From Clostridiaceae bacterium JG1575 (GTDB taxonomy: Bacteria; Bacillota; Clostridia; Clostridiales; Clostridiaceae), in the NCBI GenBank assembly GCA_002838815.1, contig LQGW01000052.1, positions 124,001-188,000 on the forward strand: a stretch of DNA of 64,000 bases. The letters are read 5' to 3'. A program made the position numbers and the translations under genes. Shown here one piece after another: positions 52,651-54,363 of the stretch. Numbering within the stretch: position 1 is the first letter of the stretch; the number at the start of each line of letters is the position of its first letter. The notes below the pieces were generated by a model, which did not search any database, was not told where the DNA came from, and worked only from the letters and a program-made list of their open reading frames with translations.

Positions 52651-52791
52651 GCATAGATTCCTTGAAGAGACCGCTCTTTATGAAGCTTAAAAACTTTGGT
52701 ACAATTCAATAAATAAGGGAGGGGGCCTTTGGGGTCCCTTCATCCACTGCGGAAAAATCGCCGTTGCTGCAAGACCCAAAGAGAGGATCCA

Positions 52792-53562
52792 ATGGACGAA
52801 AAACTGAAGAAAGATCAAGCGATTCGCAAAGAAGTTCGCGACTTTTACGACCAAATTGCGACCGGTGAGAAACAAGTCGAGACCTCCCCAGAAAAGCTTC
52901 AAGAATCGCTGGGCTATGACCCCAAATGGCTCCAGCAAATCCCCGAACAGGCGCAATTGGGCCTCTCCTGCGGCAATCCGCTGGATCATGTGTTGCTTTT
53001 GCCGGGACAGACCTTGCTGGATTTGGGCTCGGGTGCGGGCTTGGATGTTTTCATGGCTCGACTCAAGCACCCCGATGCGGGAGCCATTTATGGCGTGGAC
53101 CGTTTGGACCGCATGGTGCAGCGGGCCCTCAAAGTTCGAGATCAAAAAGGCTTCCGGGACGTCTTTTTCGAAGTCGGGGAGCTGACGGAACTGCCCTTTG
53201 CGGACCAATCCTTCGATTACGTCATCAGCAACTGCGTGATCAACCTTGAGCCCGACACGCAAAAGGTCTATGAGGAAATTTTTCGCGTCTTAAGAAGGGG
53301 AGGTCGTTTTGTCGTTTCAGACATCGTCTTGAAAAAACCACTGCCTCAAGCGCTTCGTGAGCGAAAAGATCTTCACGGAACTTGAGTGGGCGGCGCGCTT
53401 CCCGTGGGGAAGCTTCAAGAATGCATTGAGCGTGCAGGGTTCATCCGGCCGTCCCTCCAGCTTGAGGAAGTTACGGATGAATATGCTAGAAAATGGGGTT
53501 ATGGCTTAGGCATCAAAGAAATCATCGGACGGGCTCTTTTGAAGGGCCAAGTTCCCGAATAA
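52792..53562 (+). CDS. arsM: ArsM-type arsenite methyltransferase, predicted selenoprotein (Sec198)
   Basis: SAM-dependent methyltransferase that would methylate As(III). The SAM site is LLDLGSGAGLDVFMARL (75-91). ArsM cysteines seen: C60 (LSCGNP) and C148 (ISNCVINLEPD). After HGT at residue 197 the frame meets TGA (53383-53385) and then continues VGGALPVGKLQECIERAGF for 57 further sense codons to TAA at 53560. In the family this site is the third arsenic-binding Cys (consensus C-[IVL]-[AG]-G-A-L), so TGA replaces exactly that Cys. A SECIS-like hairpin follows at proper spacing. With readthrough the protein has 256 residues. Without it, translation stops at 53385 and an essential thiol is lost. 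A nonsense mutation is the alternative. GAGAGGA precedes the ATG, and TACAAT at 52700-52705 may be the -10. Confidence 0.8.
53383..53413 (+). promoter_or_regulatory. UGA codon with SECIS-like hairpin
   Basis: TGA at 53383-53385. After 11 nt comes the stem GCTTCCC (53397-53403), loop GTG (53404-53406), GGGAAGC (53407-53413). The loop begins with G, 18 nt after the TGA, within the window described for bacterial SECIS elements (G in the first two loop bases, about 16-37 nt after UGA). Confidence 0.55.
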
Positions 53563-53606
53563 AAAAACGCCCAGGAGGGGTTCTTGAAGCCTCCTGGGCG
53601 TTTTTT
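53563..53606 (+). terminator. terminator after arsM
   Basis: ACGCCCAGGAGG with CCTCCTGGGCGT inside A and T tracts, 11-nt loop, TTTTTT at 53601-53606. It begins immediately after the distal TAA stop, which fits the longer, read-through gene. Confidence 0.9.
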
Positions 53607-54117: not shown

Positions 54118-54363
54118 AGTGTTGACGCCCCGCCCAACGATGAGCGCAGGGAGCATACGGTCACGATGATTAAAGAGTACCATGTGGATGGAGTCATTGA
54201 TGTGATTTTGCACGCCTGTCATACCTTCAATGTGGAATCAATCCTCATGGCCGATAGCATTCGAAAGAGCGGAACTCCCTACATGAAATTGGAGACGGAT
54301 TATTCTGGGGCGGATGCCGGTCAGATCGAAACCCGCATTGGCGCCTTCCTTGAAATGCTTTAA
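54118..54363 (+). pseudogene. C-terminal remnant of a 2-hydroxyacyl-CoA dehydratase subunit (HgdB/FldC-like)
   Basis: About 80 codons matching the last part of the BcrC/BadD/HgdB family: [40 protein letters not shown], and [19 protein letters not shown] with the terminal LEML. Similarity extends upstream of the ATG at 54166 to about 54124 (DERREHTVT) until an in-frame TAA. The full subunit has about 380 residues, so more than three quarters is gone. It suggests the ancestor had a 2-hydroxyglutarate- or phenyllactate-type amino-acid fermentation gene here or received one by transfer. Confidence 0.8.

Follow-up and report, generated by a model that had tools for sequence, protein, structure and literature searches.

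A predicted selenocysteine-containing methyltransferase of the ArsM/AS3MT family in Clostridiaceae bacterium JG1575

The stretch of 64,000 nucleotides of the Clostridiaceae bacterium JG1575 genome that was analyzed here (the window) contains an arsM-type gene whose codon 198, a UGA, is very likely read as selenocysteine (Sec) under the direction of a SECIS element, giving an enzyme of the ArsM/AS3MT family with a predicted Cys60/Cys148/Sec198 site for As(III). A preliminary description of the same DNA had proposed Sec at this codon, and the proposal is supported by the Sec machinery of the genome, a conserved TGA/Cys alignment column, the SECIS element, and the intactness of the gene. Sec-containing ArsM is a kind of protein already on record, of which the product of this gene is a rather divergent new member; new here is a SECIS stem-loop that is shared by the TGA-form arsM genes, with none comparable in the Cys forms.

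A single in-frame TGA in an arsM-type gene

The gene occupies positions 52792 to 53562 of the forward strand, from ATG to TAA, and encodes 256 amino acids with U198; its assignment rests on translation of the frame, matches to NF008823 and to PDB sequences, and an AlphaFold model. Translation revealed exactly one internal stop, the TGA at codon 198 (53383 to 53385), after which the same frame resumes with VGGALPVGKLQECIERAGF and runs up to the TAA at 53560 to 53562, as the preliminary description had stated. The part 3' of the Sec codon (53386 to 53559) comprises 58 codons, one more than the 57 sense codons counted previously, and encodes a conserved part of the C-terminal fold (helix 205-215 and strands 218-225 and 245-253). 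Identity to the two nearest homologues was 53 to 55% before the UGA and 50% after it, and no decay other than the TGA at codon 198 was found in the gene. An intrinsic terminator, already noted immediately behind the TAA, was found by folding at 53562 to 53606 of the same strand (17-bp stem, 11-nt loop, T-run, -30.5 kcal/mol). A sigma-70 scan overlooked it because of its 11-nt loop and detected no promoter 5' of the gene.

Two further features flank the gene. In the leader, 5' of the ATG, a strong hairpin lies at 52715 to 52745 (GGGAGGGGGCC / GGGGUCCCUUC region); it has no Rfam match, as is the case for the whole window at gathering thresholds, and is possibly a regulatory RNA or the terminator of the ABC transporter genes. 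Between the arsM-type gene and mutS, a remnant of a 2-hydroxyglutaryl-CoA dehydratase D-component lies in decayed sequence at 54167 to 54361 and matches the last 64 profile positions of PF06050 (E 3.2e-22).

Conservation of the TGA among homologues

Homologues were sought in 58 relatives, about 390 genomes from the same class, and three Tissierellaceae contigs. The column of codon 198 held TGA in 20 loci, that of the window included, and Cys in 18, counts that leave out four loci without an internal stop that fell outside the motif filter (L061, L065, L067, and L069). The 19 other TGA loci were spread across Clostridia, down to about 37% identity. Alignment of relatives at this codon had been suggested as a check, and it showed that the nearest homologues have TGA rather than TGC or TGT and the more distant ones Cys, with no other decay in the gene of the window. 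The earlier argument that a chance nonsense mutation would be unlikely to strike this codon is thus borne out by the composition of the column. An error of sequencing or assembly in a TGC or TGT codon would require only one base, and the assembly consists of 64 contigs, but the same TGA occurs in independent assemblies, including that of Tissierella creatinophila DSM 6911 (L041); these genomes refute the error, the probability of which is negligible.

The gene selA was present in all five TGA-form relatives tested and missing from two of seven Cys-form genomes. A tRNA-Sec above the cut-off was not found in the fragmentary relative G001, a point against the Sec reading. In an unrooted maximum-likelihood tree, a branch supported at 98/96 set all Sec forms to one side, a topology that fits gain and loss of Sec alike. 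The gene in the window shares its close clade with G312, a genome of another family, a hint of horizontal transfer. In three relatives (L047, L048, and L049), TGA apparently serves as both the Sec codon and the final stop of the same arsM gene.

A SECIS element downstream of the UGA

Folding under the constraints of PMC13188914 identified a bacterial SECIS on the forward strand at 53397 to 53413, with a 7-bp stem (GCUUCCC at 53397-53403 and GGGAAGC at 53407-53413) and the loop GUG (53404-53406), which is separated from the UGA by 18 nt. Bacterial SECIS elements have a stem of 4 to 16 bp and, 16 to 37 nt from the UGA, a loop of 3 to 9 nt whose first or second nucleotide is G, often within GG or GU (PMC13188914). 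The hairpin in the window agrees with these published rules for stem, loop, G, and distance, a comparison that did not include the exact free-energy criterion of the published model.

A stem-loop 17 to 23 nt after the UGA was present in all 20 TGA-form genes, with a mean of -4.5 kcal/mol, and 19 of the 20 hairpins had G as the first or second loop nucleotide and conformed to the published SECIS rules. The 18 Cys-form genes had a mean of -0.1 kcal/mol at the same place and no comparable hairpin. The stems varied in sequence between clades, with examples such as UAUCUCU/AGAGAUA, UUCUUC/GAAGAA, and UAACGAA/UUCGUUA. In 400 synonymous recodings of the window sequence, the energy of its hairpin was never reached; of the 20 individual Sec loci, only 10 gave p <= 0.05 against synonymous recodings. 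When the 61 nt after the UGA were folded as a whole, no unusual stability was found (z 0.17); the signal is seen only when a hairpin is tested at the proper distance and compared across homologues.

These results also bear on the possibility of a pseudogene or a strain-specific nonsense mutation, in which the TGA would end translation and the tail would be a relic. Under table 11 the frame does stop at the TGA, and the decayed fragment of another gene is found close by, at 54.2 to 54.4 kb, but the same TGA in 19 other loci, the SECIS, the conserved tail, and the presence of the Sec machinery speak against it. The conserved TGA column and the SECIS in practice refute the pseudogene, which is left as highly improbable.

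Selenocysteine machinery and genetic code of the host

The genome that contains the window is represented by an assembly of 2.38 Mb in 64 contigs, with a completeness of 97%. Its contig C34 carries selA (612 bits), selB (356 bits), selD (365 bits), and a tRNA-Sec (67.5 bits) that ARAGORN called as SeC with the anticodon TCA. The preliminary description had made the Sec reading dependent on selA, selB, selC (tRNA-Sec), and selD, and all four are present. Three genes of this genome, encoding SelD (ICGGU), GrdA (CFVU), and GrdB (STUGTC), served as internal controls and have TGA at the canonical Sec positions. Together, the machinery and these controls make it very probable that UGA is decoded as Sec in this organism.

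Several genes of the genome contain an in-frame TGA, as would also be expected of a changed genetic code (TGA as Trp or another amino acid) or of nonspecific read-through. Either is extremely unlikely: 9 of the window's 34 long open frames end in TGA, and the code is therefore not globally changed; homologues without the TGA have Cys, never Trp, at the aligned position; and the other in-frame TGAs are at canonical Sec positions. The use of TGA as a stop in the same window was taken to refute this reading.

The genes selD (itself with Sec), selB, selA, tRNA-Sec, and grdA/grdB lie together within about 18 kb (G000:C34:123322-141419), and additional GrdB-type genes are found elsewhere in the genome. 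This Sec/glycine reductase cluster and the further GrdB-type genes suggest a Stickland-type amino acid fermenter.

Predicted arsenic ligands, family membership, and modeled structure

The preliminary description had equated C60, C148, and the TGA position with the three arsenic-binding Cys of ArsM, and two alignments agree with this assignment. In an alignment with the ArsM of Cyanidioschyzon (CmArsM), the function of whose Cys ligands is described in PMC6950371, Cys60 (52969 to 52971), Cys148 (53233 to 53235, in SNCVINL), and codon 198, all on the forward strand, correspond to the known arsenic ligands C72, C174, and C224, respectively. Furthermore, C60, C148, and C/U198 were invariant columns in an alignment of 25 sequences. 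The fourth CmArsM Cys, the extra N-terminal C44, has no counterpart in the U198 protein.

With C in place of U, the best NCBIfam match was arsenite methyltransferase NF008823 (E 4.5e-66, residues 7 to 229), at 223.1 bits, below the curated cut-off of 263 bits; the substrate is therefore not settled by the family, and the protein is filed as an ArsM-family homologue rather than a proven arsenite methyltransferase. The best PDB sequence matches were CrArsM, CmArsM, and human AS3MT (E 1e-22 to 1e-25 for the ArsM sequences). A tblastn search of plasmids returned only matches of <60% identity, the best among the matches listed being 33 to 40%.

An AlphaFold2 model of all 256 residues, based on an alignment built in this analysis, had a pLDDT of 92.2 and a pTM of 0.91 and showed an ArsM-type, SAM-dependent Rossmann methyltransferase fold. 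The best structural match by VIA-align was the ArsM structure 4fr0 (Z 24.3, 2.4 A over 212 residues), followed by other methyltransferases at Z 22, so that the fold alone is no proof of the substrate. The residues beyond 198, which a 197-residue product would lack, form one helix and the last strands of the model.

In the proposed mechanism, the SECIS just downstream of the UGA would recruit SelB with Sec-tRNA(Sec), and codon 198 would be decoded as Sec in a 256-residue SAM-dependent methyltransferase of the ArsM/AS3MT family. Trivalent arsenic would be held by Cys60, Cys148, and Sec198, with Sec at the site normally occupied by the third Cys, and methyl groups would be passed from SAM to the bound arsenic. 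The selenium may provide a better nucleophile or ease the recycling of the thiol(selenol)/disulfide stage.

Genomic context and the identity of the substrate

The identity of the substrate is the main doubt about the Sec-ArsM reading. The main substrate of a real selenoprotein could be something other than arsenic, namely, another soft element or a thiol/selenol compound (Se, Te, Sb), or the protein could have a role in a Sec-linked pathway. This is unlikely. Several observations favor it in addition to the score under the curated ArsM cut-off and the missing first of the four ArsM Cys. The genome gave no match to Acr3 or to ArsP. The neighbors of the gene (an ABC transporter, an FtsX-type permease, mutS, mutL, and miaB) are unrelated to arsenic, as are those checked for its homologues in G312 (dnaA, yidC, and jag), G001 (glycogen debranching and NhaC), and G331 (PfkB, DeoR, and DUF5714). 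On the other side, the three ligand positions are invariant, and the closest matches in both sequence and structure are arsenite methyltransferases. An ArsM could protect the cell without Acr3 if methylation itself detoxifies. In addition, some characterized ArsMs have two or three Cys (PMC6950371).

A more specific idea, which we regard as doubtful, is that the Sec forms, which share one side of the tree and occur in several clostridial families, make up a selenium-dependent subfamily of their own in which Sec together with Cys60 and Cys148 would shift the range of substrates or products, for example, to another metalloid or to selenide, and which would not consist primarily of arsenic resistance enzymes. 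At L077:7323-8051 of G331, a DUF5714 gene adjoins the Sec-form arsM; this arrangement was seen once, and the DUF5714 protein is a possible functional partner of the Sec-form ArsM.

Relation to known methyltransferases and implications

In 2007, the Sec/Cys pairs of Fomenko et al. reportedly indicated which Cys of AS3MT is catalytic. The selenoprotein tables of PMC9312934 and PMC13188914 list Sec-containing arsenite methyltransferase ahead of the "predicted" families; PMC13188914 gives its motif as UxxG and credits the protein to Fomenko et al. 2007. Fusion forms are credited to Haft and Tolstoy 2025. The published protein (NF008823/PRK11873, with WP_011987699.1 as an example) and the U198 protein are alike in belonging to the ArsM family and in having one Sec and UxxG (here U-V-G-G), the Sec positions being equated by this motif; they differ in that the U198 protein scores under the NF008823 curated cut-off (223 versus 263 bits).

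The fusions NF041536 (ArsM/DUF2284), NF041537 (ArsM/AhpD), and NF047649 (methyltransferase/UXPK-star) have a homologous methyltransferase domain and the Sec motif UxxG, but this domain is fused to a second one and the proteins contain two or three Sec, whereas the U198 protein is a single domain of 256 residues with one Sec. The fusion profiles match its methyltransferase part only, with scores far below their cut-offs.

The Cys-form enzymes CmArsM (4fr0/4fsd), CrArsM (5evj), and human AS3MT (8xt7) have the fold (Z 19 to 24) and the SAM-binding domain in common with the U198 protein. The latter keeps the Cys matching C72 and C174 of CmArsM, has Sec for C224, lacks an equivalent of C44, and, unlike the eukaryotic ArsM/AS3MT proteins, has no C-terminal extension (256 residues, compared with chains of 321 to 387). 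The ArsM of Bacillus sp. CX-1, with two conserved Cys (C145 and C195), demonstrates that two Cys can suffice for methylation of As(III) to MMAs (PMC6950371). Judged by spacing, C145 and C195 would correspond to C148 and U198; the Bacillus enzyme is Cys-only, whereas the U198 protein retains a third ligand, Cys60.

Standard annotation will truncate the product of such a gene, here to 197 residues instead of 256, with loss of an arsenic ligand and of the end of the fold, and this could cause arsM to be undercounted in anaerobic Clostridia. With its recognizable SECIS, the pairing of a Sec with a Cys subfamily offers a ready system for learning what selenium adds to the methylation of As(III).
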